The notes below the pieces were generated by a model. That model ran no database searches and was not told the DNA's origin. It was given only the letters and a program-made list of their open reading frames with translations. DNA of 64,000 bases from the NCBI RefSeq assembly GCF_019218285.1, contig NZ_JAHUZG010000001.1:558001-622000 (forward strand). Direction: 5' to 3'. The translations under genes and the position numbers were made by a program. Source of the stretch: Antarctobacter sediminis. GTDB lineage: Bacteria; Pseudomonadota; Alphaproteobacteria; Rhodobacterales; Rhodobacteraceae. This document shows positions 3,225 through 37,382 of this stretch, in pieces. The stretch's first letter is position 1. The number at the start of each line of letters is the position of its first letter.

Positions 3225-3500
3225 TCAGCTTTCGATGCGGGGCTTGTTCTTGCGCGACGTCGTGGGCGTGGCCGGGTCGTCCCATGTGACTCGCAGGCTG
3301 ACGGTACAGCGGCCGTCTTCGCGTTCGCCCTTGATACGCACATTCATCAGGTCAGCGGTTTGCAGGACAAATTCGTCGTCTTCGTCGCCCAGCGTCATTT
3401 CCCCCTTGCCGAACCCTTTTGACAGGGCGGTAAGCAGGGTCTTGATCGTCTTGGCATCCTGAAGCGACTCATGCGTGAAACGCTTGTTGTTTTCGCTCAT
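3225..3500 (-). CDS. Amphi-Trp domain protein, last gene of a GAK-type operon
   Basis: A 91-residue soluble protein. Its core (about residues 15-75) alternates hydrophobic and charged residues and ends in LRVTWDD, matching the small amphi-Trp domain as I remember it: a helix that excludes strands (TIKTLLTALSKGFGKGEMTL), then EFVLQTADLMNVRIKGE, then the Trp strand. The last 20 residues are a polar, probably disordered Thr/Ser/Lys tail. The start at 3500 has GGAG seven bases upstream. It lies 13 bp after the metallophosphoesterase stop, so it is almost certainly the distal gene of the six-gene operon. Function unknown; its small size makes it a candidate carrier or substrate of the neighbouring enzymes (inference). 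Confidence 0.7.
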   Translation of the reverse strand: MSENNKRFTHESLQDAKTIKTLLTALSKGFGKGEMTLGDEDDEFVLQTADLMNVRIKGEREDGRCTVSLRVTWDDPATPTTSRKNKPRIES

Positions 3501-3513
3501 TCCGGGTCTCCGG

Positions 3514-4818
3514 TCAGTTCATGCGCTCGGGGGCAAAATGCTTGGCCCGGGGATAGTCGCGGCTCAGTCCGATCACATCTCCGGAGGGAAAGATCAAGGT
3601 CGCGCCGGCGCCGATCCCATCCAGCCCTTCAAGGGCGCGCGAGGTGCGGTCCAGCGTGACATCGCCTTCGAGGTGCAGAAGGCCGCGTTTCGCCAGCAGG
3701 CGCTGGCCCGCGTGATTGTTGACATGGCCCTGCACGACCATGTGGATGCCCGCACGGTGCAGCGCCGCCACCCCTTCATCGGTCAGCGTGCAGTCCGAGG
3801 CGCGATATTTCGTCCGCACAAGGTTTGCCAGTGGGCCGAAGTAAAAGTTCAGGGTCGCCGCCTCGGTCGCAGAACGATAACGGGCGTTGACCTCATCGGT
3901 GCCGCGCGTGGCCAGCGCCGCGCACATGTCATCGCACAACCCGGCATGTACGAACAGCAGCGACCCGCTGCGGGCCACGACATCCATCCGTTGGTAGAAC
4001 CAAGCGTATGTGCCGCCGGGGGTCACAAAGAGGTCATGACATTTCAAGAGTGCCGCCAGCAGGTCCCGGTGGCTCAGCCCGACGCGGGCGATTTCCTTGT
4101 CGAACTTGCGCAGCTTGTCCTGCAACTTGGCGATTTCCTTGCGGATCACCTTGGGGCGCAGGTCCGGTTTGGCCGCCTTGCGGAACCGGGTGGCCCAGTC
4201 GGGGCCGGGCATCAGCCGTGCCCGACAGGCCGCGTCGTCGGGCAGGGCGTTCAGATCGCCCTGTGTCACATAGCGGTCATATACTTCGCGCAGGGCGGGC
4301 AGGATCTTGCGCCCCATGCGGACGAAAAGATGTTCGTTCAGGGCGCTGCGCGGGCCACGTACCGCGGCAATCGCCATGCGCATCCGCAGATCATGGTTTC
4401 CCGCGAGGATCTGAACCTCGGCCCCTGTGTCCAGCAGATCGGCAAGCGCATCCAGCAGGGCAAGGTTGCTTGGCCCCTTGTCCAGGGTGTCGCCCCCCAG
4501 AACGATCCGTGCCTGTTGGCCAAATCCGGTCAGGACAATGCGGCCGGCTTCGCGGCGGATGACCCCGGCGGCGATCAACGAGCGCAGAAACCCCTCGGCG
4601 TCCGCGTGCGGGTCGGAAACAAAGACGACTGGCCGGTCTGGCCAACGCCAGCCGCCGTGCAAACGCGCGCGTTCCAGACAGGCCGCGACCTGCGGCTGAG
4701 TCGAGGCCTCGGGCCAGGGTTCCAATTTGCGGGGCAAGTCTGTCAGGCAGGCGTCATGATCGAAAACAGGTGGCAGAAGTTCCGCCCCCTCAAGGGAAAA
4801 TTTCCGAAGTTCCGTCAT
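3514..4818 (-). CDS. Calcineurin-like metallophosphoesterase in the GAK-type operon
   Basis: A 434-residue cytoplasmic phosphoesterase. The dimetal motifs appear in order: VFVSDPHADAEGF (D69, H71), LGGDTLDKG (D110), AGNHD (N141-D143), FVHAGL near residue 300, and VVQGHVNNH near residue 375. An insertion of about 150 residues between GNHD and the last His motifs includes a charged coiled-coil-like stretch (KEIAKLQDKLRKFDKEIA). The start at 4818 follows GGAGG closely; the open frame runs on to 4932 but that leader lacks a ribosome site. It lies 37 bp after the histidine phosphatase and 13 bp before the amphi-Trp gene. Substrate unknown. The context suggests it hydrolyses a phosphate ester made by the kinase or CofD-like partner (inference). 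Confidence 0.8.
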   Translation of the reverse strand: MTELRKFSLEGAELLPPVFDHDACLTDLPRKLEPWPEASTQPQVAACLERARLHGGWRWPDRPVVFVSDPHADAEGFLRSLIAAGVIRREAGRIVLTGFGQQARIVLGGDTLDKGPSNLALLDALADLLDTGAEVQILAGNHDLRMRMAIAAVRGPRSALNEHLFVRMGRKILPALREVYDRYVTQGDLNALPDDAACRARLMPGPDWATRFRKAAKPDLRPKVIRKEIAKLQDKLRKFDKEIARVGLSHRDLLAALLKCHDLFVTPGGTYAWFYQRMDVVARSGSLLFVHAGLCDDMCAALATRGTDEVNARYRSATEAATLNFYFGPLANLVRTKYRASDCTLTDEGVAALHRAGIHMVVQGHVNNHAGQRLLAKRGLLHLEGDVTLDRTSRALEGLDGIGAGATLIFPSGDVIGLSRDYPRAKHFAPERMN

Positions 4819-4855
4819 GTCCTGCCCTCCTGACGCGCCTCTGGCGGCGTGGGGG

Positions 4856-5542
4856 TCAGTCCTTGGGGCTGTCCCCGGCTGCCCGGATTTTCCAATCGCC
4901 TGCCAAGTGGTGCCACCTACCATGGGGATCATGACAGATCAGTGACGGCCGGGCGTGAAACATGGACAGCCGCGCAATGTCATCGCGGCCAAGCAGGCCA
5001 AGGTGGTGACAGGCATGACGGAAAGAGGCGCCATGGCCAACGTGGATCGTCAGCAGGCCGGGTTTTGCAGTGGCGCGGATGTGACGGGCCACGCGCGCAC
5101 CCGCCTGCATCAGGCTTTCGGCACCCTCCAGCGGCAGGCGGTATTCACTGTCTGATTTCCACCCCGGCGGCGGCGCGTCGTAACGGGGATCGTCGTGCAG
5201 GGCGGTTTCGATTTCGGCCAGGGTGAGATTGGCGGCGCTGCCCAAGCCACGTTCGGCCAGATCCGGTGTTTCGGCGACGGTTTCGACCGGATACCCTGCG
5301 GCTTGCAGGCCCTGAAGGATGTGTTGCGCGGTTTGCCATGCCCGCAGCTGATGCGAACTGTGCATCACCGGCGCCGGTGTCAGGCCATGGGTTTCGATCA
5401 TTCGGGCCAGCAGGATGGCGCCTTGCCGGGCCTGCGCGCTTCCGTCTTCGGTCAGGGGCCATGGCTGGCGGGCCGAGGGCACACCCTTGCGCTGATGATA
5501 GGCGCCGTGCCGAAAGAAGGCCACATAGGCGCGCTCAGCCAT
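4856..5542 (-). CDS. Histidine phosphatase family protein in the GAK-type operon
   Basis: A 228-residue branch-1-type histidine phosphatase. The phosphoacceptor RHG is at residues 11-13 (VAFFRHGAYHQ). DLAERGLGSA is in the middle, and VGHGASFRHA near residue 170 supplies the second His. The ATG at 5542 lies inside the end of the upstream kinase gene: the two share eight bases (ATGGCTGA), a sign of translational coupling. The family dephosphorylates sugars, nucleotides or phosphoproteins. Paired with an HprK-like kinase, it could reverse that kinase's product, but the sequence does not show the substrate. Confidence 0.82.
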   Translation of the reverse strand: MAERAYVAFFRHGAYHQRKGVPSARQPWPLTEDGSAQARQGAILLARMIETHGLTPAPVMHSSHQLRAWQTAQHILQGLQAAGYPVETVAETPDLAERGLGSAANLTLAEIETALHDDPRYDAPPPGWKSDSEYRLPLEGAESLMQAGARVARHIRATAKPGLLTIHVGHGASFRHACHHLGLLGRDDIARLSMFHARPSLICHDPHGRWHHLAGDWKIRAAGDSPKD

Positions 5543-6605
5543 TGAACAGGGCCCGTCCGTATTCGGCCATGGCGTCAAAGTCGATCCGGCCCGACACCTC
5601 GCAGACCCGCACGCCGGTCATGGCGTCCAGATAGGCAGCGGGGTCGGGGCTGTTGCCATTGGGTTCGAAACGCCCGTCGGGGTGCTGGTAAAAGGGGCCG
5701 GGGCTTTTCATGATGGCGCTCAGCAAGTCGGGGCGATGGGCCAGATCGACCTCCGTTACAGCTGTCGGTGCCGCGCTGTCATGGCTCCAGTTCAGGACCC
5801 AGAAATCGGTCAGCGGACCGTGATAACGGATGCGGTCGGGGCCGTAGACCTGCGGGATGATCAGGTCATGTTTGTCCTCAAGCGCCCAGAGTTCAGACAC
5901 GGGCAGGGATCGAAGCTCGGCCGTGCGTTCCGGTGTCAGCATGGCGTGCAGACGCGGATTGCCAAGGATTGTGCCCGGATTGATGCGGGGATGCTTGGGG
6001 ATGCCCAAGGCCTGCGCGGGGGCACCGGCCTGCACCAGAACGCGGTCGTTGCTGACAAAGGCGATACCGTCGATATCCATCATCCGAAGGATCGAGGTGG
6101 ATTTGCCGCCGCCCGACAAACCCGAAATCGCAAGCGTTCGCGTACCGTCGGTCACCGCGGCGGCATGGGCCAGTTGCCAGCCCGCGCGCAGGCAGGTGTT
6201 CAGAACCTGCGTATTGATGAAATTGATGACCGTGCTTTCGTTTTCGTCCAATGGGCCGAAAGCGATGGCCAGATCCGGGCCTTGCAGGAAGGTCACGCCG
6301 CTGCGGACCTTGCGGATCAGTCGCGCGCCATCGAGATCGTGGATCGCGTCCTTGCGGCCGCTTTTGCCGCCTTCGCGCAGCCAGTCTGTCCACGCTGGTT
6401 CGGTGCCAAGGGTCTGGCCCGGCAAAAGATGCACGTCGAGGTTTCCGGGCTGATCGGTCAGCGCCGCGTCGAAATACCGGATCAGGGCGCTGCGCAGCGG
6501 CTCTGGGCAATGGACAGAGACCCCAACGTGGCCGACGCGCAGATGAAAGGCGGCCTCATGCGCCACTGTCAGATCAAGATCGCTCAGGATGTCATTGACG
6601 GTCAT
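5535..6605 (-). CDS. HprK-related kinase (type B), GAK-type system
   Basis: A 356-residue kinase whose C-terminal half carries the HPr kinase/phosphorylase fold: HAAAV (H147), a P-loop GLSGGGKST at 162-170, then FVSNDRVLVQ at 183-192, matching the HprK order of His, Walker A and S-x-D. The N-terminal 140 residues are not HprK-like. No HPr or PTS gene is nearby, so catabolite repression is unlikely to be its role; NCBI-type families call such genes 'HprK-related kinase B' (recalled, not checked). The ATG at 6605 overlaps the ATP-grasp stop by ATGA, and its own stop overlaps the histidine phosphatase start. Confidence 0.78.
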   Translation of the reverse strand: MTVNDILSDLDLTVAHEAAFHLRVGHVGVSVHCPEPLRSALIRYFDAALTDQPGNLDVHLLPGQTLGTEPAWTDWLREGGKSGRKDAIHDLDGARLIRKVRSGVTFLQGPDLAIAFGPLDENESTVINFINTQVLNTCLRAGWQLAHAAAVTDGTRTLAISGLSGGGKSTSILRMMDIDGIAFVSNDRVLVQAGAPAQALGIPKHPRINPGTILGNPRLHAMLTPERTAELRSLPVSELWALEDKHDLIIPQVYGPDRIRYHGPLTDFWVLNWSHDSAAPTAVTEVDLAHRPDLLSAIMKSPGPFYQHPDGRFEPNGNSPDPAAYLDAMTGVRVCEVSGRIDFDAMAEYGRALFNG

Positions 6606-7483
6606 GCGGAAACCTCTGTCAGCACGTGGTCTGCCACCTTGGCGGCGGCGTCGATCCCGCATCCCTTGAGCGCCCCGGAATAGCCGCCAAAGGCCGAAAC
6701 CTCGAAGACGATCGGACCATCGGGGGTCATGGCTATGTCGACGGTGGTAAAGGTCAGGCCAAAGGGTGCCTGTGCGCGACGGCCCAGTTCGATCAGTTCA
6801 GGTGTTGGATCGAAGGGTTCATATTTCCCGCCCGAGTGGATCGTCGTGTTCCAGCTGCCGGTCTGGCTGACGCGGGCGTAGGTGCAGATGTAGTCGCCGT
6901 TCAGGAACACCATGCCCAGATCATGCCCGGAGAGATCTGCCTTTTGCTGGATGTACATGACCGGGTTCTCCGCCTTGAACCCTGCAATCTGCGCCTTGGC
7001 ATCGGGGGCGTCGGCCTGCAACAGCAACATGCCGCGTGCCTTGGTGGAAAAGAGCGGTTTGAACACCGCAGCACCGAAACGGGTCAGCGCGGCCTGCGCG
7101 GCGTCCAGGTCTTCGGTGATGACGGTGGCGGGCATCGGGACGCCTGCATTTGACAGGGTGACGGTACAGGCCAGCCGGTCCATCAGCCGAATGACGCTGT
7201 GCGCAGGGCTGAAGACGCGGACGCCGCGGGCCTCGGCGACGCGCAGCATCTCTAGCCGGTCAAGCGCATGGGGGCTGTAGGTTTCCGACACCTTTTTCAG
7301 GACCAGACCGTCCAGTGTGCACAGGTCCACGTCGTCGCACAGCAACTGGCCTTTGGACAGGTCCAGCGTGACCCGCGCCATGTCGATCACCTTGCGGTAT
7401 CCGGTGCGGGTTTCGAATGCGTCGGCCAAGGCTTCGGTCGACCATTTTCCGGGCGTCCCGATGACGCCGATGCGTTTACTCAT
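6602..7483 (-). CDS. RimK-like ATP-grasp ligase, GAK-type system
   Basis: A 293-residue ATP-grasp enzyme. Residues 1-95 form the pre-ATP-grasp domain (RIGVIGTPGKWST). The nucleotide-binding lid includes VFKPLFSTKARGML (140-152), and the metal-binding end is TVDIAMTPDGPIVFEVSAF (247-265). ATP-grasp ligases join a carboxylate, through an acyl phosphate, to an amine or thiol. Here the usual final E-x-N metal motif reads E261-V-S263, an Asn-to-Ser change. The start overlaps the upstream gene by eight bases and the stop overlaps HprK-B by four. It matches what databases call the 'GAK system ATP-grasp enzyme' (recalled). The ligated substrate is unknown. Confidence 0.78.
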   Translation of the reverse strand: MSKRIGVIGTPGKWSTEALADAFETRTGYRKVIDMARVTLDLSKGQLLCDDVDLCTLDGLVLKKVSETYSPHALDRLEMLRVAEARGVRVFSPAHSVIRLMDRLACTVTLSNAGVPMPATVITEDLDAAQAALTRFGAAVFKPLFSTKARGMLLLQADAPDAKAQIAGFKAENPVMYIQQKADLSGHDLGMVFLNGDYICTYARVSQTGSWNTTIHSGGKYEPFDPTPELIELGRRAQAPFGLTFTTVDIAMTPDGPIVFEVSAFGGYSGALKGCGIDAAAKVADHVLTEVSA

Positions 7484-9107
7484 CGAACAATTCCTTTATG
7501 GGCAACTTGAACCGGGCCTCGCGTCCCTCGGGCACAGCCAGCGCGGATTCAAGGATGTATCTGGCACGCAGCAGCATGCGGCGCGCGTGGGACTGGTCGA
7601 CGACAAAGCGCGTCGAACTGGCAAAGGACCGCGCCAGTCCAAGGGCGAGGCGGTATTCAAAGGTGGCGTCTTTCTGGCGGCGGGCGAACTTGGCGGCCAT
7701 TGCGTGCATCTGGGTGGCCACCGCAGAAATCCGCGCGCGGGTCTGCGCATCCAGCACTTGCAGGCGATAGTTGGATACCATGAAGACCGAAACATCCTGC
7801 ACGTAATCCATGTAGCGCGAGCGGTGCAGGTCGATGAAACGGATCTTGCGGCTGACCGGGTCATAAATCACGTTGTCGAGGTTGAAATCCCCGTGGATGT
7901 AGACCGAGAAGGGTGCCGGCAGCCGGGCCTCTCGCTTGGCCGCCGCGGCGATCAGATCGTCAAAACCCTCGATGACCAGCCCGTTCAGAACCTGACGCCC
8001 ACGGGCATGGCGTGGATGCAGGCGATAGACATCTTTCATGCGTTTGGCCAACTGGTCCATGGCGCGCATTTCGGCGGGTTCCCCGGTAAGGGTCTGCCGC
8101 CAGATGTCGCGGACGGTGCGGTGCAAGGCGTCGGTGGCTTCGGCCAGGGCCTTGTCGCTGCCGCCCAGAACGATGTCCTCAAAGGTCTCACCTTCAAGGT
8201 GTTCAATCAGCAGCGCGGCGCTTTTGCCGCTTTTTTCATAGGACAGGATTTCGGGGGCCAGACCGGGATAGACCGAGTTCCAGCTTTTGACGCCGACGCG
8301 CTCTTCCTTGACCTTGTGTTTGTCACCGTCCTTGAACACTGCGGCCACCGTCTTGCCTTTGGCATCGCGCAGCGAGACCGACGAAATGGCCGAACCCGAC
8401 CGTGTTTCGGCCAGAGGTTGCAGGGTGATTTCTTCGTCACGCGACACCCCGGCCAGAACGCTGCGCAGGGTGAAATATCTTTCGAACTGAACCGACTGCC
8501 CGATGTTGATCGACAGGATCGCCTCCGAGATCGTCTGCAAGGCTTCGCCCATGCGGGTGACTTCGTTCAGCGCCAGCAGGGCAAAGGCGAGGTCCTCGGT
8601 GTGCTTGGTGCCCTGCATGTCACGGGTGTAGGTGCGGAACAGTTGATCGTGAAAGCGGCCCATGTCGGTATGGATCTGCCCGATCTGCACCGCCAGCTTG
8701 CTGTCGCGTGCTTCCAGCGCATCGTGAATGCGGGCGACGGTCTTGCGCACTTTTTTCAGCGGGGCGACATAGGTGTCTGCCCTCAGCAATTTCTGGCGCT
8801 GGATGCGTTCGGCCTGATCCACGGCGCGACGGCCAAGCCGCGAGATCAGGTCGAGGTTCCGGGCAATCGTATCGATGCCTTGCAGGCGCAGGTTCTGCGG
8901 ATCGGGTTTCTTGCCGCGCATCATGCCGGTCAGACAGGCCTTGCGGACGCGCGACGACAGATTGTTGGAATACCCGGCCCGCTGGACCAGTTGCAGGGCT
9001 ACCTCGGATCGGGGGTCTGCGAAATAGGAGATCAGCCGGGACAACTGTCCATCCATCTCGGCAAGGAGAAAGGACATGTTCTCGGCGATGGCGTCGGGGC
9101 GTGACAC
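7476..9107 (-). CDS. PhoU-like/aminoglycoside-phosphotransferase-like fusion, first gene of the GAK-type operon
   Basis: A 543-residue two-part protein. Residues about 15-215 are nearly all helical with PhoU-like signatures (NLDLISRLGRRAVDQAER; later NEVTRMGEALQTISEAI). The C-terminal half has APH/choline-kinase-type catalytic motifs, HGDFNLDNVIYD at 405-416 and FIDLHRSRY with D426. I chose the GTG at 9107: AAGGAG sits seven bases upstream, whereas the ATG further upstream (9164) has no ribosome site and adds a non-homologous leader. It probably phosphorylates a small hydroxyl compound. The PhoU-like part could sense metal or phosphate (inference). It leads the operon and faces the CofD-like gene. 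Confidence 0.7.
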   Translation of the reverse strand: MSRPDAIAENMSFLLAEMDGQLSRLISYFADPRSEVALQLVQRAGYSNNLSSRVRKACLTGMMRGKKPDPQNLRLQGIDTIARNLDLISRLGRRAVDQAERIQRQKLLRADTYVAPLKKVRKTVARIHDALEARDSKLAVQIGQIHTDMGRFHDQLFRTYTRDMQGTKHTEDLAFALLALNEVTRMGEALQTISEAILSINIGQSVQFERYFTLRSVLAGVSRDEEITLQPLAETRSGSAISSVSLRDAKGKTVAAVFKDGDKHKVKEERVGVKSWNSVYPGLAPEILSYEKSGKSAALLIEHLEGETFEDIVLGGSDKALAEATDALHRTVRDIWRQTLTGEPAEMRAMDQLAKRMKDVYRLHPRHARGRQVLNGLVIEGFDDLIAAAAKREARLPAPFSVYIHGDFNLDNVIYDPVSRKIRFIDLHRSRYMDYVQDVSVFMVSNYRLQVLDAQTRARISAVATQMHAMAAKFARRQKDATFEYRLALGLARSFASSTRFVVDQSHARRMLLRARYILESALAVPEGREARFKLPIKELFDE

Positions 9108-9276
9108 GCTCGGGCTCCTTGTCAGTTCATGGTCCGCGCGCAATGGCAGGTTTCCGCGACACATGGATGACAGCGCGCGTCGTCGGGCGTATGAGGTGGC
9201 CGCGGTTCAAGGCGCCATATGGGCCAGCTTTGCCGCGGATGCAAAGCGACAAGCCCGCGCCCGCCCGGAGAATGCG
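9108..9276. promoter_or_regulatory. Divergent promoter region of the GAK-type cassette
   Basis: These 169 bases separate the operon's GTG start (9107) from the CofD-like ATG (9277) and must hold both promoters. Ribosome sites are visible at each end: ctcctt (AAGGAG on minus) at 9115-9120, and GGAG at 9267-9270. I see no convincing -35/-10 pair or operator palindrome. Both strands stay open across the region, so a longer N-terminus of the CofD-like protein cannot be excluded. Confidence 0.5.
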
Positions 9277-10464
9277 ATGAAACCGACCCCGATCACCGTG
9301 CAGCGCGAGGTCAGCCTGCCTGATGATCTGCGCGTGGCCCGCGCCGAAAGCGCCCCGCATCTGGGGCCTCGTATCCTGTTTTTCAGCGGGGGCAGCGCAT
9401 TGAACGGCGTGTCGCGCCGGCTCAAACGGTACAGTTTCAATTCGATGCACCTGATCACGCCGTTCGACAGCGGCGGCAGTTCGCGCGAACTGCGCGAGGC
9501 ATTTGACATGCCCGCCGTTGGCGATCTGCGGTCCCGCCTGATGGCGCTGGCCGATGAAACTGTCCTTGGGCAACCCGATGTTTATGCCCTGTTCACCCAC
9601 CGCTTTCCCAAGACCGCAGAGGCCAAGTGCCTGCGGGCCGAGGTGCAGCGCATGGCCAAGGGCAAACATGCGCTGATGTCGGCCATTGCGAAACCGATGC
9701 GCCAGTTGATCCAGAGCCAACTGGACAGCTTTCTGGCCGAGGTGCCGGACCGGTTCGACTATCGCAACGCCTCGATCGGCAACCTGATCCTTGCGGGCGG
9801 TTACCTGTCTCACGGCCGGGCGCTGGAGCCGGTGCTGTTCATGATGTCAAAAATGGTCGACGTGCGCGGCACCGTGCGGGCCGTTGTCGACGAAAACCTG
9901 CACCTTGGTGTTGATCTGAAAGACGGCCGCCGGATCATCGGCCAGCGCGCCCTGAGCGGCAAGGAAGTGCCCCCGATCAACAGCCCGGTGGTCCGCTGTT
10001 TCCTCTCTGCTTCGCCAGACGAGGAACGGCATGTCGATGTGCCGCTGCCCAAGCGGAACCGCAAGCTGATCGAGCAGGCCGATGTGATCTGCTATCCGCC
10101 GGGCAGCCTGTATTCCAGTATTATCGCCAATCTGCTGCCTTCGGGCGTGGGCAGGGCTGTGGCGGCCCGGCCTGTTCCCAAGGTCTATTTGCCCAGCGTC
10201 GGCAAGGATCCCGAAGCCATGGGCCATGACCTTGCCGATCAGGTCGCCGCGATCCTTGCGCCGCTGATGGCGGATGCCGGGGCAGGGGCGCGGGCCGTGG
10301 ACCTGATGACCCATGTGCTTTGCGATACGGATGTCCCCGAGCCGTCCTGCGCCGAAGTCACGAAACGGCACGGAATTCCCTGCATCCGTTTGCCCCTGCG
10401 ACAGCCGGGCGCGGCCCTGTACGACGATGATCTGGTCGCGCGGGTGCTGATTTCGCTCAACTGA
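9277..10464 (+). CDS. CofD-like (2-phospho-L-lactate transferase fold) protein, GAK-type system
   Basis: A 395-residue protein of the CofD/YvcK superfamily. Diagnostic motifs: FFSGGSALNGVSRRLK at 35-50 (the substrate GG-loop), a DSGGSSRELR segment at 64-73, IGNLILAG near 167-174, and YPPGSLYSSIIANLLPSG at 273-290. CofD joins a nucleotide-activated phospho-acid to a flavin during F420 synthesis, whereas YvcK-type proteins bind UDP-sugars. No other F420 gene is present. The start at 9277 has GGAG six bases upstream. It is divergent from the kinase/ATP-grasp operon, the arrangement expected for the 'GAK system CofD-like protein' family (recalled). The likely role is transfer of an activated phospho-group; the acceptor is unknown. 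Confidence 0.75.
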   Translation: MKPTPITVQREVSLPDDLRVARAESAPHLGPRILFFSGGSALNGVSRRLKRYSFNSMHLITPFDSGGSSRELREAFDMPAVGDLRSRLMALADETVLGQPDVYALFTHRFPKTAEAKCLRAEVQRMAKGKHALMSAIAKPMRQLIQSQLDSFLAEVPDRFDYRNASIGNLILAGGYLSHGRALEPVLFMMSKMVDVRGTVRAVVDENLHLGVDLKDGRRIIGQRALSGKEVPPINSPVVRCFLSASPDEERHVDVPLPKRNRKLIEQADVICYPPGSLYSSIIANLLPSGVGRAVAARPVPKVYLPSVGKDPEAMGHDLADQVAAILAPLMADAGAGARAVDLMTHVLCDTDVPEPSCAEVTKRHGIPCIRLPLRQPGAALYDDDLVARVLISLN

Positions 10465-10485: not shown

Positions 10486-12288
10486 TCAGATGAAATCCGC
10501 GGCGGTGATATCGCCCGGGGCCAGCCCCTCCAGCGTGATAAAGACTGTCGGATCGGCGGTGAGGGCGACGCGCAGGCCGTCGGTCTCGGCGGTGACGGTC
10601 AGGTCGTCGAAACTCAGGCCGCCCGTCAATTGGATGACGTCCGAGCCGTCTTCGAAATCCAGCACCCGGTCCTGGCCGGAACTGTCGCCGAAGATGAACT
10701 GGTCCGGGCCAGAGCCGCCCACCAGAATGTCATTTCCGGTACCGCCGTCGATGGTATCCGCACGACCGCCGCCATAGATCTGGTCATCGCCATCGCCGCC
10801 GCTCAGCGCGTTTCGGCCACCGTTGCCGGACAGAACATCATCGTAGTCCGAGCCGATCAGGTTGCCGATGGAGACAAGGCTGTCGCCCTCGGCATGACCG
10901 CCCGCGGCAGAGTTGCTGAACAATGCGACCGTTACCCCGGCGTCAGAGGTTTCATAGCTGGCGGTGTCCCGGCTGTAGCCGCCATAGATCTGATCCGCGC
11001 CTGCGCCGCCGATGAACACATTGTCGTTGGCGTCACCGGACAGAACATCGTCGTGGTCCGACCCCGTCAGGTTTTCGATCGAAGCAAAGCTGTCGCCCTC
11101 GGCGTCGCCGCCCGAGGCCGTGTTGTTGTAAAGCGCGACACGGATGCCGCTGTCGGAACCTGCGTAGCTGACCGTGTCGAGGCCGTCACCGCCGTCCATG
11201 ATGTCGGCACCGGCCCCGCCGACCAGCAGGTCGCTGCCGTCCCCGGCGGTCAGCGTGTCGCTGCCTGCTCCGCCGATCAGGATATCCGCGCCCGCTCCGG
11301 TCGAGATGTCGTTGGCGGCAGAGTTGCCGGTCACCGTATCGTCGCCCGATCCCGTCACCGCGTTTTCGATCACCGCGCCCCGGGCGATGCCGAAGGTTCC
11401 GACATAGCCGTCGAGGTCAGACCAGGTTTCGGCCAGCAGGCTCAGTCGCTGATCTGCTGTGCGGCTGCCAAGGTCGATGGTGTCGATGCCGTCACTGTCA
11501 AAGATCGTCACGGCATAACCCGGGGCCAGATCCATCCCTGCACTGGTCAGCGGCGTGCCATCACCATAGACCGTGTTCCCCGTATGCACGTTGTCGGGCG
11601 TGCCATAAAGTGTATGAATGGCAAGGATATCGGCCATCTGTGGCGTCGCCAGATAGGCATAAGACGCATCGACGTTCGGATTTTCCCACTGCGCGAAATA
11701 CGACATGACCGACATCTGCCAGCTGTCGTTGGCGTAATGGGCGTCAGAGGCAAAATCGCCGCTGCCATTGTAGTTGCCGCCGTGCCCCAGACCCAGAGCA
11801 TGGCCGATTTCATGGATATAGGTCTGGTAGTAATAGTCGGCGTTGCTCTGCCAGCTGACATGTACGTTGACCACGGAATAGGCGATTTCATTCCACGATG
11901 TGTAAACCGCCGAGTAGGCATAGGCCCCGGTGTCGGTGTGCTGAAAGGTGATGTCGGCATCTTCGATCGTGACGGTGAACACCAGCCCCGAAACCGCCGA
12001 CCACGCGTCCAAAGCGTCCAGTGCAGCCTGTTGGCCCATGGCGTCCAACGCGGTGATGTTCACCGAAATTTCGTCGCCGTATTGCACATCGAAGGCGCGC
12101 CAGTCGCCGCCGCCGTCCTGCCAGTAGGCATGGGTCAACTGATAGGCGACCTGATCCAGCGTGTAGACCGGCTTGGCATTGGCGGGATCATCGGATTCAC
12201 CATCCTGCGGACGCGCGGATGTTGGTCCTGTCAGGCCGTGAAAGTCATAGTCCGAACGGGGATCTAGGCTTTGGCAGAGAAAACACAT
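10486..12288 (-). CDS. Secreted M10 (serralysin-type) metallopeptidase with RTX repeats
   Basis: A 600-residue zinc protease. The metzincin site HEIGHALGLGH is at 159-169, with the Met-turn SVMSYF at 193-198. Residues about 310-530 carry GGxGxD calcium-binding RTX nonapeptides, interleaved with 70-residue units of the type 'DTASY..SDAGVTVALF'. The last 60 residues (VLDFEDGSDVIQL to the end) form the C-terminal type I secretion signal. There is no N-terminal signal peptide, as expected for type I substrates. The C-terminal 60 residues closely resemble those of the neighbouring 1032-residue RTX protein. No ABC exporter, membrane-fusion or inhibitor gene is in the window. It converges on the CofD-like gene 21 bp away. 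Confidence 0.9.
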   Translation of the reverse strand: MCFLCQSLDPRSDYDFHGLTGPTSARPQDGESDDPANAKPVYTLDQVAYQLTHAYWQDGGGDWRAFDVQYGDEISVNITALDAMGQQAALDALDAWSAVSGLVFTVTIEDADITFQHTDTGAYAYSAVYTSWNEIAYSVVNVHVSWQSNADYYYQTYIHEIGHALGLGHGGNYNGSGDFASDAHYANDSWQMSVMSYFAQWENPNVDASYAYLATPQMADILAIHTLYGTPDNVHTGNTVYGDGTPLTSAGMDLAPGYAVTIFDSDGIDTIDLGSRTADQRLSLLAETWSDLDGYVGTFGIARGAVIENAVTGSGDDTVTGNSAANDISTGAGADILIGGAGSDTLTAGDGSDLLVGGAGADIMDGGDGLDTVSYAGSDSGIRVALYNNTASGGDAEGDSFASIENLTGSDHDDVLSGDANDNVFIGGAGADQIYGGYSRDTASYETSDAGVTVALFSNSAAGGHAEGDSLVSIGNLIGSDYDDVLSGNGGRNALSGGDGDDQIYGGGRADTIDGGTGNDILVGGSGPDQFIFGDSSGQDRVLDFEDGSDVIQLTGGLSFDDLTVTAETDGLRVALTADPTVFITLEGLAPGDITAADFI

Positions 12289-12777: not shown

Positions 12778-15700
12778 TCAGGTGAAATCGTCGGCGGTGA
12801 TATCGCCCGGGTTCAGCCCCTCAAGCGTGATATGCACGCTGGGATCGGAGGCAAGGGCGATCCTTTGCCCCGAGGCGACCGTGGTCACCGTGAGATCGGC
12901 AAAGGTCAGTCCGCCAGTCAGTTGAATCAGGTCCGTGCCGTCCTCGAAATCCAGAACGGTGTCCTGACCGCTCTGGGTGCCAAAGACAAAGTGATCCCCC
13001 CCGGGGCCGCCGCTCAACGTGTCGTTCCCGGACCCGCCGTCCAGCGTGTCGGAGGACCCGCCGCCATAGAGCTGGTCATCGCCGTCCCCCCCGATCAATA
13101 TGTTCCGTCCACCATTGCCCGACAGAACGTCGTCGTGATCCGATCCGGTCAGGTTTTCGATGGACACAAGCGTGTCGCCGGTGGCATCTCCGCCGGTGGC
13201 CGAGTTGTTGAACAGCCCGACGCGGACCCCGGCGTCGGACCCGGCATAGCTGGCCGTGTCGGCGCTGAAACCGCCATAGATCCGGTCTGCTCCGTCGCCG
13301 CCTTCGATCGTGTTGCGCCCGCTGTCGCCGGACAGTTCATCGTTGAAATCGGATCCGATCAGGTTCTCGATCGACACCAGCATATCGCCGGACGCATGGC
13401 CCCCGGAGGCGCTGTTGTTGAACAGGCCGACCCGAACCGCGGAATCCGATCCGGCATAGCTGGCCGTGTCGGAATTGAAGCCGCCATAGATCTGGTCACC
13501 GCCCGCGCCGCCTTCGATGATGTTTGCGCCGCTGTCGCCCGAAAGTTCGTCGCCAAATTCCGATCCGATCAGGTTCTCGATCGAGATCAGGCTGTCACCG
13601 GCGGCATGCCCTCCCATCGCCGTGTTGTTATAGAGCGCGACCCGTACCGGCGCGTCGGAATCGGCAAAACTTGCCGTATCCAGATCCGTACCACCGTCGA
13701 GAATGTCCTGACCCGCACCGCCATTCAGCGTGTCATGCCCGGCCTGACCTCGGATGGTGTCGTTTCCGGCATCGCCCCGGACAAGGTCATCGCCGGCACC
13801 GGCCTCGATCAGATCGCCGCCATCCGGCCCCGAACCGCCGTCGCCGCCAAGGATCGTATCATCTCCGGCACCCCCCAGAATGGTGTCATCGCCGTTGCGG
13901 CCTTCAAGCCGTCCCGGCGCCGCCAGCCCCAGCAGGATGTCGTCGGACAAGGTGCCGATCGCAGGGTTGGCCGAAAGCGTGCCGAAGTTGAAGGTCGCGC
14001 GGATGATGCCGACGGTCATGTCGTCGAATTGCAGCGCAGTGAATCCGCTGAGCTGATCCACCCCGTCCGGTCCGCTGATCTGGACGATCGGGTCCAGCAC
14101 TTGCTGAGGCGTCTGGATCACATAGTCGGACCGCAGCCCGGAAAACACCGCAACGCTGGAATAGGCGGCAAAGGACAGCCAACTGCCCGTCAGGATGTCA
14201 TTGCCGGGGCCGCCATCAATGATCGAATTTCCAATCGACGCGGAAATCGTATCATCGCCCATGCCGCCTTCGGCACTGCCTGTGCCACTTAGAACCGTCA
14301 TGAAAATCAGGTCATCGGCAAGCCGGCGGCTGCCATCGGAAAAGAGGATGTCCCCCAGCAGCGGCGGCGCGCCGTCACCGGTTTGGATCTGTACGATGCG
14401 ATTGTCAAAGACCAGCCGTTCGACGTTGGTCAGCGTATCGGTGCCTTCGGGGCCGTCGACCTGCACATACCGTATCCCGCCTTGCTGATAGGTGGTGACG
14501 GTGTATTCGGATCTGCGGCCGGAATAGATGGCAAGGTCCAGCCCGGGGCCGCCATCTATCGTGTCGTCTCCCGGTCCGCCGATCAGCGCGTCATTGTCTG
14601 CGCCGCCTTCCAGCAGGTCATTGCCTTCGTTACCTTCGAGCCTGTCGCCACCCGATCCACCCTGAACGGTATCGTTGCCTTCCATGCCGCGGATCAGGTC
14701 CGGATCGCCGCCGCCTTGCAAGAGATCATGACCGTCATTGCCAACGATCAGATCATCGCCATCGGTTCCGACAATGGTGCCGTCGTTTTCAAAGCCTGGA
14801 ATGCTGGGCAGGACAAATTGTTCGCCGTCCGTCAGGTCACGGAACCCGGCGATGGTTTCGGCAAAGGCCGCGCGGTCGATCCCGAACCATTGCAGCGTCT
14901 GCTCGATGACCCATGCTTCCATTTCGGCGCGCCAGAGATCAAGGCCGGAACGGGCGTCGGGATGTGTTGACGCGACCGGGTTGCCGGCGCTGTCGTAATA
15001 GCGGCTTTCCTGGATCGTGATAATCCTGTCCAGTGATGGCAGGTAATAATCGTTTGGCGACCCGTCGATCTGGTAGGGACCTTCGAAATCTTCGGCGGTC
15101 ACACCGGCCGGATCGAAGATGAACGGCGAGCCCCCGTAGCCATAGGCGCTTCGGCCTTCGATCTGATCGAACCCGGCGCTGTAGAATTCGGGAAAGGGAG
15201 CACCGTCGAGATAGGCTTCGTACCGGAAGTTTGAAATCGGGACAGCGGTCACGCGGGTCAGGACATATTCCACGACGTCTTCAAAGAAGGCCATGACATC
15301 CTCGATCTGTCGCGAGATCTTGTCCGATGCGATTTCATCTCCTTCGAGTTCGCGCGCGACTTCCATCCGGACGTAAAGCGTATAGGCAACCGCGGCGATA
15401 CCTGCCTTGAGCGCGTTCAGCGCCGTGGGCGGATCGCTGGGTTCCATCATCTGCGTCGCCTGTGCAAGCGCGTCACGCAAGGCCCGCGAGGCATCTGCGA
15501 TGATCTCGGCGCGGTCGATATCAGGGTCAATCGAATATGAGGCCAAGAGATCCAGAGCACTGGCCGCGCGGGATTGCGCGCTGGCCAGCAATTGCTGCTG
15601 GAGATCGGAAAACTCGGAAATGATGAGCTCGGTCAGGGCGCGCTCCATTTCGACGATATCGTCCTGAAGCTGTTCGATCTCGTCTTTCAGCTCGGCAATT

Positions 15701-15876
15701 GCGGCAAGGTTGGGATCCTCGACGTCATTGAAGGTGCCGTTGCCGTTCACATGAGCATAAATCTCGGACGCGATGGTGTAGACCGTTCCGGCAATGGTGA
15801 GAACATTGGCGATGGAACTGAAACCATTTCCGCCCAAAAGCCCGGAAACACCTTTATCGATCTGAAAGAATGGCAT
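12778..15876 (-). CDS. Large RTX protein with a helical N-terminal domain, type I secretion substrate
   Basis: A 1032-residue protein. Residues 20-42 are a hydrophobic helix. Residues about 55-205 form long charged helices (coiled-coil-like, EIEQLQDDIVEMERALTEL), and 210-365 is a mixed domain without RTX repeats. From about 370 to 970 there are many GGxGxDxL calcium-binding repeats and three tandem 70-residue units. The last 60 residues match the secretion tail of the adjacent M10 peptidase. It is therefore very likely exported by a type I system encoded elsewhere. The N-terminal half shows no enzyme motif I know; adhesin, S-layer or pore-forming roles are all open. It starts at 15876 and is preceded by an AT-rich gap. 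Confidence 0.8.
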   Translation of the reverse strand: MPFFQIDKGVSGLLGGNGFSSIANVLTIAGTVYTIASEIYAHVNGNGTFNDVEDPNLAAIAELKDEIEQLQDDIVEMERALTELIISEFSDLQQQLLASAQSRAASALDLLASYSIDPDIDRAEIIADASRALRDALAQATQMMEPSDPPTALNALKAGIAAVAYTLYVRMEVARELEGDEIASDKISRQIEDVMAFFEDVVEYVLTRVTAVPISNFRYEAYLDGAPFPEFYSAGFDQIEGRSAYGYGGSPFIFDPAGVTAEDFEGPYQIDGSPNDYYLPSLDRIITIQESRYYDSAGNPVASTHPDARSGLDLWRAEMEAWVIEQTLQWFGIDRAAFAETIAGFRDLTDGEQFVLPSIPGFENDGTIVGTDGDDLIVGNDGHDLLQGGGDPDLIRGMEGNDTVQGGSGGDRLEGNEGNDLLEGGADNDALIGGPGDDTIDGGPGLDLAIYSGRRSEYTVTTYQQGGIRYVQVDGPEGTDTLTNVERLVFDNRIVQIQTGDGAPPLLGDILFSDGSRRLADDLIFMTVLSGTGSAEGGMGDDTISASIGNSIIDGGPGNDILTGSWLSFAAYSSVAVFSGLRSDYVIQTPQQVLDPIVQISGPDGVDQLSGFTALQFDDMTVGIIRATFNFGTLSANPAIGTLSDDILLGLAAPGRLEGRNGDDTILGGAGDDTILGGDGGSGPDGGDLIEAGAGDDLVRGDAGNDTIRGQAGHDTLNGGAGQDILDGGTDLDTASFADSDAPVRVALYNNTAMGGHAAGDSLISIENLIGSEFGDELSGDSGANIIEGGAGGDQIYGGFNSDTASYAGSDSAVRVGLFNNSASGGHASGDMLVSIENLIGSDFNDELSGDSGRNTIEGGDGADRIYGGFSADTASYAGSDAGVRVGLFNNSATGGDATGDTLVSIENLTGSDHDDVLSGNGGRNILIGGDGDDQLYGGGSSDTLDGGSGNDTLSGGPGGDHFVFGTQSGQDTVLDFEDGTDLIQLTGGLTFADLTVTTVASGQRIALASDPSVHITLEGLNPGDITADDFT
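13061..13690 (-). repeat. Three tandem 210-bp (70-residue) repeats in the RTX gene
   Basis: The marker ccgccataga recurs at 13061, 13271 and 13481, exactly 210 bases apart. Each unit encodes a segment containing 'DTASYAGSD..VRVGLFNNSA', then 'SIENLIGSD', then RTX nonapeptides. A more diverged fourth copy lies to the right (to about 13.75 kb), and related units are in the M10 peptidase. The repetition is internal protein duplication, not a CRISPR or an element. Confidence 0.85.
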
Positions 15877-16360: not shown

Positions 16361-18763
16361 ATGAAGCAACTATTCGCAGTCTTGTTTGCCTGTCTTATCG
16401 CTCCTCCGCTGCTGGCTCAAACCGGGACCGAGTGCCCCATTCCCGAGGTTCGGTTCGACCCGACGGCAAGCCATGCCGAAAGGCTGGATGCCGCGATCAT
16501 CTCGCAGACCTTTGTGATCTGCACGCAGCGTCAATCGCTCAGGGACACGGCCCGCATCAAGCCAGAGGGGGACGCAGAGCTGGTCCGGTCGATGCTTGAT
16601 GCGTTCGAAGCGGACCTTGATCTCTTGACCTCGCGCCTCACCATGCCGCCGATCGAAGACTACCGTGCGGCGTTCGCCCGCATCGGGCGCGACAAACAGG
16701 CGGTGGCCTGGGCGGACTACCTATCGGCCACGGCCGCCCTGCATTTCTACGACACCTGCAACCGAGCCAAAGGCGAATGCGCCATCGACTTGCCGATCAT
16801 GAAGGCCGTACCAGACCGGCACGGCATGGCGCCGCGACCCTGGGTTGCGATGATTGCCCGCACGATGCGCCCCGAACCGATGCCGCCCTGGTTCCGCTTG
16901 GGGTCGGTTTCGATGCGCTACGAACCCGACAGCCTCGCCTTTCTGCGGATCAAGTCCAAGCTGGACGAGGCGACCCGCGCCCGGGATGAGGCAATCCGGG
17001 TGCTGGACAAGGCAAAGGCCGATCTTGCTGCGCAGCTGGACAAGCGGGCCGGGGTGCTGGCGCCGCTTCGACAGCGGATCGAAAAGGATCGTCAGACCCT
17101 GTTCCGGATGGAGATGCAGCGCAAACCCGACAGTAACAAAGTGATGAAGGACCCGGGGTGGCAGGCACGGGCAGACATCGCGCGGCGTGCCGAGAAGCGG
17201 GTGGATGAGTTGGATAGGGCTATGGCCTCTGTCTTTGCCACCGAAGGGAATACCGCCGCCGGGCAAAAGCGCTTGCGCGAGATGCAGGATGAACGCGACG
17301 CAGAGGCTTTGCGCGCAGATACGGCATGGGCCGAACGCATTGCCATGTTGCAACCCGACTATACGGCAGAAGAACGCGCTATCCGCGAGAAACTGGAACA
17401 GGAAATAGGTGTGAACCAGCGCGATCACGACCGCAGGCAAGCGATCTATGACGGCTGGATCAGAGAGGCGGAAATTAAACTCGTCAAGGCTCAGGTCACG
17501 CTGGACGCGGCCTATGAAGTGCTCGGCGCCGCCCAAAAAGAGATGCAGAAGTGGTACGCCGGTCAATCCGTTGCGAGCGTCCTGCTGATCGAAACCGATC
17601 ATGCCCGTTTCGTGCCCGCGAAAGGGGACGAGCTGGACAAGCTCCGCACCGAGATCGCAAGGCTGGAAGCCGAGATTGCGGACAGAGAGGCACGACGCGC
17701 CGACCTTCAAGCTAAGCGCGAAGAGGCCCGTCAGGCGATGTTGGCCGCTGGACAAACCGCAGACCGCATGAATGACCGTTTGGCGGCTGCGGGCCTGGCT
17801 TCGATGATGGCGCAATATGCCGTGGAGGCGGGGTTTTCCGCCCGCGATTTCATCAAGTCGATCCGCGGCGGACCGGCGGCCATGTTGGCCGAGGCCGCGC
17901 GGCAGGGGGTCGGCATCTACCTGTCGCCGCCCAGTTACTATGATGCCTCCACGAAACGGCTCTCTGACTATGCTCGTGGTCAGGATACCCCCAGCGACTG
18001 GGCGCTTGTCGATCTTGATAGCCTGACCAGTCGTGAAACGCTGGTCAAAACCGTCGAGAAAAACTGGGCCAACCTCCCGCTCAAGACACTTGTCCAAAGT
18101 CTGACGCAGGAAAACCTGTGGCGGGACCAGCGGATCGGTTGGAAACAGTTCAAAACCGTCGACGGCAACATGTGGCAACAGCTCAGGAAAATCGGTGAGA
18201 CCGAGGTTGAGCTGGAGAAAGTCACCAAGGAATTGCGCGCAATGACTGGCCGGGCCGGGGCATTTGCCGCCGTCAAATCGTTCACCACGAAACTGGGCGA
18301 AGGCGTTGCCAAAAGCATCGCAAAGGAGGCCACGAAAAAGGCCATGGCCGAGATCCTCGAAGGCAGCCAGTTCGAGGAATACATGTTGGCGCAGGTCGAT
18401 CTAAGCCAAGCGGTGGCGCGTTTCCAGCACGCCGGGGGCCTGTATTGGAGCAATGAGGACCTGCTTGCGCTTGCACGGGCCAAACTCTCGGGACTTTTGC
18501 AACGCGATCTGGGCCCAAGCCTGTTGATAGACGAGCGCAATGAACCGTTTTATCCGCAAGAGGGTTATGCGCTCCGGTTCGAGTTCTCGGCCAGCAGCGC
18601 GGCACAACTGCGGGACGCCAAGATCGAGGTATTCCTTGCGGGCCTGAAACTGGAGCGCGATCAGGGAACGACACAATTTATCTGGCGTCTTTCGGCAGAG
18701 GCCGCCGAACGCTTGCACAGGGGTCTGCCAGAGGCGCTGCCGATCGAGATCTTGGTACAATAG
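16361..18763 (+). CDS. Exported coiled-coil protein of unknown function
   Basis: 800 residues with a clear Sec signal peptide (MKQLFAVLFACLIAPPLLAQ). After about 180 residues with several Cys, two long heptad-rich regions follow (about 200-400 and 420-480: repeated LDEATRARDEAIRVLDKA-type and LRTEIARLEAEIADREARR-type helices). A less charged C-terminal 300 residues ends in a beta-rich segment. Start: GGAG lies seven bases before ATG 16361. I recognise no family or catalytic motif. It is monocistronic and stands between the RTX genes and an integrative-element remnant. A periplasmic scaffold role is possible but is only a guess. Confidence 0.75.
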   Translation: MKQLFAVLFACLIAPPLLAQTGTECPIPEVRFDPTASHAERLDAAIISQTFVICTQRQSLRDTARIKPEGDAELVRSMLDAFEADLDLLTSRLTMPPIEDYRAAFARIGRDKQAVAWADYLSATAALHFYDTCNRAKGECAIDLPIMKAVPDRHGMAPRPWVAMIARTMRPEPMPPWFRLGSVSMRYEPDSLAFLRIKSKLDEATRARDEAIRVLDKAKADLAAQLDKRAGVLAPLRQRIEKDRQTLFRMEMQRKPDSNKVMKDPGWQARADIARRAEKRVDELDRAMASVFATEGNTAAGQKRLREMQDERDAEALRADTAWAERIAMLQPDYTAEERAIREKLEQEIGVNQRDHDRRQAIYDGWIREAEIKLVKAQVTLDAAYEVLGAAQKEMQKWYAGQSVASVLLIETDHARFVPAKGDELDKLRTEIARLEAEIADREARRADLQAKREEARQAMLAAGQTADRMNDRLAAAGLASMMAQYAVEAGFSARDFIKSIRGGPAAMLAEAARQGVGIYLSPPSYYDASTKRLSDYARGQDTPSDWALVDLDSLTSRETLVKTVEKNWANLPLKTLVQSLTQENLWRDQRIGWKQFKTVDGNMWQQLRKIGETEVELEKVTKELRAMTGRAGAFAAVKSFTTKLGEGVAKSIAKEATKKAMAEILEGSQFEEYMLAQVDLSQAVARFQHAGGLYWSNEDLLALARAKLSGLLQRDLGPSLLIDERNEPFYPQEGYALRFEFSASSAAQLRDAKIEVFLAGLKLERDQGTTQFIWRLSAEAAERLHRGLPEALPIEILVQ

Positions 18764-36659: not shown

Positions 36660-36779
36660 GGTGCATCTCCTATTGGTCCGATGCACACCCACATAGCGAT
36701 CCCTGCGAAAATGAAACCTCGCGCTTTTTCACAGGATCTGTGCGCTTTCGGGCAAAGGAAACCCCTGTGCCCGATGCGT

Positions 36780-37355
36780 TTAGCCGTTGGGATAGATATA
36801 GGCCCTGCGCGCCGATTCCAGACCATCCAACCCGCGGTTGATGGCAGGAATGGCCCGGTTCATCATCGGTGTGACCTGCGGGTTCAGCGCGGCCCGGGCG
36901 GATTGCGACCCCGCGGCCTTAAGCAATTGGTAGGCCGCCTCGAAATCCGACGCTTGGCTGCGATAGGTTTCGACAAGCGCCCGCGCCTCGGAGAGGAACT
37001 TGGTCCGTCCGGCCACGCCGTCGTCTTCGTTGGCCAACCCGGCAATAACGTCAGTGGCCTTCGTCGCCTCGGTGGTCATGCTCTTGCCGCAGGTCTCACC
37101 AAAGAACAGGGCCACATTTGCGGTTGTGGCCTCTTGTTCGAAGGTTCCGGTGGTCAGGCCGATCATGTAGTCGGTGCAGCTGCGCGAATGACGGTCCATG
37201 GCGTTGATCGCCTTGACCACCTTGTTCGCGTCCGATTTGCGGAGGTTTTGCGCTTCGATCCGATTATTTTGCTGATACCGCTCATAGCGCGACACCATGA
37301 ACATGACGCCTGCCGCAAAAGCGGCAAGCGTGATCAGCAAGGACAGAATACGCAT
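36780..37355 (-). CDS. Membrane-anchored helical protein, unknown
   Basis: 191 residues: an N-terminal membrane anchor (LLITLAAFAAGVMFMVSRY) and an otherwise helical periplasmic part, with Cys in RSCTDYM and GETCGKSM. It lies 27 bp past gyrA on the same strand and may be transcribed with it. No family recognised. Confidence 0.6.
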   Translation of the reverse strand: MRILSLLITLAAFAAGVMFMVSRYERYQQNNRIEAQNLRKSDANKVVKAINAMDRHSRSCTDYMIGLTTGTFEQEATTANVALFFGETCGKSMTTEATKATDVIAGLANEDDGVAGRTKFLSEARALVETYRSQASDFEAAYQLLKAAGSQSARAALNPQVTPMMNRAIPAINRGLDGLESARRAYIYPNG

Positions 37356-37382
37356 TTACACAAACCCTTTTCAGTTCACTGG

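Follow-up and report, generated by a model that had tools for sequence, protein, structure and literature searches.

What is made, or controlled, by a group of genes that combines two kinases, two phosphatases, an ATP-grasp ligase, a CofD-like protein and a small amphi-Trp protein? The question is raised by a locus of the GAK system in a 64-kb stretch of DNA from Antarctobacter sediminis (the whole stretch analysed, hereafter the window). Seven intact genes span positions 3225-10464 and are designated here by the letters P, G, K, H, M, A and C. The locus is a typical member of a named NCBIfam system. A survey of its relatives turns a vague neighbourhood into parts: a core of P, G and K, nearly always with A; the paired phosphatases H and M; the detachable CofD-like protein C; and two accessory hydrolases. 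By analogy with the building of F420 and methanopterin tails, the system is tentatively proposed to make and control a phosphorylated, amino-acylated organic acid, a reading held with less than even confidence.

A preliminary description of the window had reported seven open reading frames at these positions, with overlaps of 8, 4 and 8 bases, and had assigned them to the GAK families. The coordinates agree on all counts (P/G 8 bases, G/K 4 bases, K/H 8 bases), and the four NCBIfam models of the system score above their cut-offs. Starts within longer open reading frames were chosen from the translations and from relatives. An alignment of 12 ATP-grasp proteins was used to scan genome contigs for relatives, of which at least 494 were obtained and the best 80 kept. 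Three plasmid loci, from annotated relatives that carry the cassette on plasmids, and the studied locus complete a set of 84 loci (two from the same species, T. mobilis). The 80 scan loci belong to Alpha- or Gammaproteobacteria or to unclassified relatives thereof, with the exception of one labelled Actinobacterium (L040), probably a mislabelled genome. Profiles iterated from the proteins of the studied locus located A, G and K in all 84 loci, P in 83 (it is cut by a contig end in L096), M in 81 and H in 78. The last two counts include remnants, namely three of the matched M and one of the H; a fourth M is also a remnant.

The gene order P-G-K-H-M-A is found in 77 of the 84 loci, a count that takes in two loci with a split P and one locus cut by a contig end; in the other seven, H and M are not intact. 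The 8-base P/G overlap recurs in 82 of 83 loci and the 4-base G/K overlap in 78 of 84, the start codons being those closest to the junction, with ATG preferred, and hence inferred. As far as sequence goes, the conserved overlaps show translational coupling, not the selection for stoichiometric expression that had been read from them. Distribution is patchy, with the cassette in 7 of 198 genomes of the host's own family. A phage origin was considered and set aside: 30 pattern matches were obtained in viral contigs and none was confirmed as a relative. Some loci show peculiar surroundings. The locus of genome G116 (L150:10927-15089) has an insertion of about 4 kb between M and the amphi-Trp gene. 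Genes that read as hydrogenase maturation or NiFe hydrogenase genes lie a few kb downstream in five Roseibium-type loci (L075, L087, L089, L090 and L097). Hydrogenase-type neighbours are present in seven loci of the cluster table; the genomes are related, and shared descent alone may account for them.

Beyond close relatives, the core was traced in 299 genomes drawn evenly from the phylum (Pseudomonadota). G exceeds its cut-off in 12 genomes, P is present in the same 12, and K in these 12 and in G140, where 157 bases separate the K gene from a contig end. Partial copies of K or G, under the cut-offs, are present in G033 and G184. A was found in 19 genomes: 11 of the 12 core genomes, G184 with its partial cassette, and seven genomes without the core; in the twelfth core genome the contig stops inside M. 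C is present in six, five of them core genomes and one, G006, without the core. The association with G is strong for K (Fisher p 1.5e-20), A (2.5e-14) and C (2.4e-7), and the expected co-occurrence of the families across genomes is borne out, K being present in 12 of 12 genomes with G. Counting against an obligatory A, G140 has K, SixA-NUDIX, H and M, yet no A within the following 6 kb. The core consists of P, G, K and, this exception apart, A.

The two phosphatases behave as a pair. H is a branch 1 histidine phosphatase (4856-5542, minus strand; Pfam His_Phos_1, 56.1 bits) and M a calcineurin-like (PPP-type) metallophosphatase (3514-4818, minus strand; Pfam Metallophos, 22.7 bits, cut-off 21.5). 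Both are intact in 77 of the 84 loci and both are missing or broken in seven (L058, L066, L069, L071, L073, L076 and L081), which retain intact copies of P, G, K and A; no locus among the 84 keeps just one of the two. Outside this set, G158 (L145) has M without H. Six of the seven loss genomes were searchable, and no other full H or M was found elsewhere in them; three retain a C-terminal remnant of M and one a broken H. In a tree of P, G and K the seven loss loci are not monophyletic, and of the 15 tips that descend from their common ancestor eight are intact. Barring regain, H and M were therefore lost on at least two and up to five occasions. A SixA-NUDIX gene adjoins the cassette in six of the seven loss loci. 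Among intact copies, H carries the motif RHG.Y.Q in 73 of 77, and M carries D.HAD in 77, GD..DKG in 76 and GNHD in 77 of 77. M scores 24.1 bits against the model of symmetrical Ap4A (diadenosine tetraphosphate) hydrolase, far below its cut-off of 176.

C (9277-10464, plus strand; TIGR04357, 492.4 bits, cut-off 340) is divergent from the operon, and is optional and detachable. It adjoins the cassette, within about 10 kb, in 49 of the 84 loci. Of 34 genomes without an adjacent copy, 29 have C elsewhere (one, L129, being a cassette split by contig ends) and five are without C. In G014 (L147) the C gene is located after A and shares its strand, and is thus not divergent. The closest solved chains are of the YvcK/GlmR type, 2o2z (E 2.8e-22) and also 2hzb. 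The motif FDSGGSS is present in all 49 adjacent copies, and a simple count of NLL gives 45 of 49. GlmR is described in PMC10128056 as an accessory uridyltransferase with D40, D41 and N198 as predicted catalytic residues, and the joint mutation of these residues in Listeria GlmR lowered activity about 100-fold. Sixteen of the 29 places with a stand-alone CofD gene were fetched. In five related Roseibium-type loci (L131-L135) a gene that translates to a glycerate-2-kinase-like protein lies upstream of the stand-alone CofD gene on the same strand; as a clue to CofD it was set aside, being confined to a single clade. An uncultured Tropicimonas genome has a further ATP-grasp copy, diverged in sequence (322 bits; L141:6351-7253, minus strand), which is divergent from the stand-alone CofD gene and may be inactive, as its conserved metal- and phosphate-binding stretches differ from those of cassette copies.

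Clustering of the remaining open reading frames of the 84 loci revealed two accessory genes. A NUDIX gene lies on the same strand directly upstream of P in 45 loci, and a SixA-NUDIX fusion, identified with Pfam, is present in 30. In 17 loci, mostly of Gammaproteobacteria, the fusion is placed between K and H; in the other 13 it is located upstream of the cassette. The RHG near its start is missing in 14 of 28 full-length copies. Since the start is doubtful in at least three of the 14, true losses of the SixA histidine are fewer. The NUDIX-box pattern fits 22 of the 28. In one locus of Qingshengfaniella (L035:6908-7366) the divergent CofD gene and P are separated by a NUDIX gene, whose overlap with P is 8 bases, as at other coupled junctions. 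The fusion was found in 16 of 48 genomes searched, two being positive controls, with an internal stop in four of the 16. The studied cassette has neither gene, and the search of the host genome found no SixA-NUDIX fusion and nothing beyond a general match to NUDIX at 87.8 bits. The preliminary description had called the studied cassette complete, which goes too far: the recurrent NUDIX and SixA-NUDIX genes are absent from the studied stretch and escaped it, and neither the adjacent C nor the H and M pair is universal.

The nature of K (5535-6605, minus strand; TIGR04355, HprK-related kinase B, 284.8 bits, cut-off 200) bears on the substrate. The P-loop GGGKST is present in all 84 copies. The conserved histidine of the HprK kinase core is found as well, and this core is matched by hhalign (97.9% over 54 columns) with an HprK profile of 11 rows, from which a stricter pattern left out L184. 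The earlier designation as HprK-like stands over this core. Along the whole length of K, however, it is a fold like that of phosphoenolpyruvate (PEP) carboxykinase that is predicted, and the modelled structure shows the two domains of that enzyme. Of the PEP carboxykinase catalytic set (Lys213, His232 and Asp269), the histidine and one aspartate have counterparts in K, and the lysine position is not reliably placeable; by residue counting, the metal-binding Lys213 would fall near Asn128 of K. The predicted fold replaces the label HprK-like and would point to a small carboxylate substrate.

G and P complete the enzymes of the core. G (6602-7483, minus strand; TIGR04356, 436.9 bits, cut-off 300) is a RimK/MptN-like ATP-grasp enzyme with the motif EVSAFGG in 84 of 84 copies, and the next best NCBIfam model is MptN, at 137.1 bits. 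P, the first gene of the operon (7476-9164, minus strand, the start codon being bracketed between 9110 and 9164), fuses PhoU-like helices to an APH-type kinase (Pfam APH 48.6 bits; PhoU 29.0 bits, with no single stretch above threshold), and carries HGDFN.DN in 83 of 83 copies. Partial distance correlations were computed over 75 loci, after exclusion of L095, L096 and the seven loci that lack H and M. The K-M, K-P and H-G pairs are highest (0.42 each) and the K-A pair is low (0.13; resampled 0.00-0.26), in a mirror-tree measure that is confounded by species history. It gives no more than a hint of M opposing K and of H belonging with G.

The final gene of the operon encodes A (3225-3500, minus strand; 91 residues; TIGR04354, 59.2 bits, cut-off 31), an amphi-Trp protein with the motif F-x-H-x-S-L-Q-D near its N-terminus. 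The F.H.S part is found in 83 of 84 cassette copies, L099 being the one without it, and in none of seven stand-alone copies. When 44 aligned cassette copies are set against the seven stand-alone ones, His10 (43), Ser12 (44), Gln14 (42) and Asp39 (44) are specific to the cassette; Gly33 and Trp73 are common to both classes. The C-terminal residue is variable, Ser in 24 of 44 and nine other residues among the rest. In the seven genomes with stand-alone amphi-Trp loci no neighbouring gene recurs in all. Two of these loci lie next to a gpsA-like gene (by translation), one is near Ppx/GppA and heparinase genes, and one is in a contig of 5 kb.

The proposal of a phosphorylated, amino-acylated organic acid would assign a task to each of these parts. 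Beyond the computed families, operon, core, optional parts and predicted fold of K, what we infer is the class of substrate, the order of the steps and the role of A. K, with its fold of the PEP carboxykinase/HprK type, and P, an APH-type kinase with PhoU-like helices, would phosphorylate a metabolite bearing a carboxylate. G, closest to ligases of the MptN and RimK type, would couple an amino acid to the carboxyl group of this metabolite. Where present, C would activate or transfer the phosphorylated acid in the manner of CofD or GlmR. H, M, NUDIX and SixA-NUDIX might clear dead-end or surplus phosphorylated and nucleotide-activated forms, and A would serve the system as its dedicated partner, perhaps by holding the enzymes or the intermediate. 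In the tails of F420 and methanopterin, esters of phospho-hydroxy acids and glutamate are handled by CofD, CofF and MptN. A bolder form of the proposal, unlikely when taken as a whole, sees in GAK an unrecognised pathway for a cofactor tail or conjugate whose product would be new to marine Proteobacteria. Its coupled core would comprise three enzymes: a PEP carboxykinase-like kinase (not a protein kinase of the HPr type), an APH-type kinase under PhoU regulation and a ligase resembling MptN. Interchangeable sets of hydrolases would serve for repair, and in some lineages a detachable step of the CofD/GlmR type would extend the product.

Several observations weigh against the proposal. C is missing from 7 of the 12 core genomes of the phylum sample, which means that no step dependent on it can be obligatory. 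Mapping of the GlmR residue numbering onto C through the 2o2z alignment matches D40 and N198 with D65 and N286, the asparagine being retained in 45 of 49 copies by the NLL count, and the position of D41 is occupied by Ser66 in 49 of 49 copies. G has a serine for the usual third metal-ligand asparagine in 84 of 84 copies; the replaced asparagine we take to be the third metal ligand that is usual in such ligases. Given these replaced residues, both G and C may have drifted in function. The structural alignment of K with PEP carboxykinase has a root-mean-square deviation of 4.9 at about 10% identity, and a profile sequence search with K returned HprK only at E 0.48, PEP carboxykinase not being among the matches listed.

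The best-supported rival is a protein phospho-switch, a possible though rather doubtful explanation, in which K is a serine kinase like HprK, whose target is a serine of HPr, and acts on Ser12 of A, M (and H) remove the phosphate, and the states of A control P and G. It draws on the fact that the cassette has no small non-enzyme other than A, which is present at every locus, on the cassette-specific Ser12 with its companions His10, Gln14 and Asp39, on the HprK core of K, and on the K-M correlation, among the highest obtained. Other findings count against it. The K-A correlation is low, the N-terminal half of K matches PEP carboxykinase and not HprK, and the double aspartate of HprK is Asn-Asp in 82 of 84 copies of K. 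Furthermore, seven loci keep K and A without M and H, and L099 has a copy of A without F.H.S. Ser12 is the one residue that separates the phospho-switch from the small-molecule proposal.

Turnover of a nucleotide or polyphosphate signal is less likely still. The signal would be of the pyrophosphate type (Ap4A-like or inositol-pyrophosphate-like) and the ATP-grasp enzyme would serve as a kinase. The frequency of NUDIX and SixA-NUDIX genes, the ApaH-like character of M (at its sub-threshold score) and the PhoU-like helices of P speak for it. Against this, G is like amino-acid ligases, and not like inositol phosphate kinases, in every family and solved chain among the matches listed; neither NUDIX type is in the studied cassette and the SixA-NUDIX fusion was not found in the host genome; and H and M are dispensable. 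A last possibility starts from the GlmR (YvcK) neighbourhood of Firmicutes, whose yvc operons also contain a NUDIX gene and an HPr-like gene. Such control of envelope precursors, where C would sense or make a UDP (uridine diphosphate)-sugar and K would set its activity by the state of carbon metabolism, is very improbable in spite of the YvcK/GlmR likeness of C, as C stands outside the obligatory core and one of the three GlmR residues is replaced in all 49 copies.

Open reading frames of the length and order seen at the studied locus, recurring in relatives, are not due to chance. Compared with L036, the relative from Mameliella, all seven genes have a ratio of nonsynonymous to synonymous substitution rates (dN/dS) of 0.11-0.25. 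The cassette lies on a contig of 1.58 Mb, and genes resembling obg, proB and proA are found at 23.5-26.9 kb; the cassette thus looks chromosomal here. Scans for regulatory sites were uninformative: no sigma-70-like promoter site was found (1.7 expected), and 14 terminator-like sites (7.1 expected) are scattered within genes. Adjoining the cassette on the minus strand is a protein of 600 residues (10486-12288) that contains RTX repeats and has a match of the serralysin type (Peptidase_M10_C), followed on the same strand by one of 1032 residues (12778-15876) that is RTX-repeat-like by its translation alone. A tRNA-Ala (agc) called by ARAGORN at 4183-4269 on the plus strand, antisense within M, is probably false. 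Two plus-strand open reading frames, of 800 (16361-18763) and 1086 residues (36681-39941), have no Pfam match at E 1e-5; the latter is overlapped by an opposite-strand frame of 912 residues and may not be a real gene.

Searches of the literature, restricted to open-access PubMed Central, found no paper on the GAK system; as far as they show, the division into core and accessory genes, the added members and the fold of the kinase are not in print within that literature. The cassette is common to many marine bacteria. If the small-molecule proposal is true, a new phosphorylated metabolite is to be discovered in culturable members of this group.

The comparison with known systems places each part of the cassette near, and apart from, a described family. 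K covers only residues 97-465 of ATP-dependent PEP carboxykinase. It differs from HPr kinase/phosphorylase (HprK) in the aspartate pair after the P-loop, as noted above, and in that no HprK match to residues 1-141 of the K model is among the matches listed. G aligns over its full length with the ATP-grasp ligases of the RimK/MptN/LysX type, including solved RimK and LysX chains, but stays below every cut-off (MptN 137.1/350, RimK family 98.6/143.4, LysX 78.9/275.6 and CofF 31.7/300 bits), and the EVN of RimK and LysX is EVS in all 84 copies. In the LysW/LysX amino-group carrier system a RimK-like ligase likewise stands beside a small protein. LysW has an invariant C-terminal acceptor residue; because the last residue of A varies over 44 sequences, A is not a carrier of this type, and that assignment was ruled out. 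C matches the CofD family of Pfam with 125.9 bits and the YvcK family with 99.9 bits, the latter under the cut-off of 196, and the Asp-Asp motif of YvcK/GlmR is replaced by FDSGGSS in every adjacent copy. With respect to the GAK system of NCBIfam itself, whose models TIGR04354, TIGR04355, TIGR04356 and TIGR04357 cover four genes and are all exceeded at the studied locus, the survey extends the regular membership to P, H and M, brings in NUDIX and SixA-NUDIX as accessories, and makes CofD an optional and hence not a defining component.

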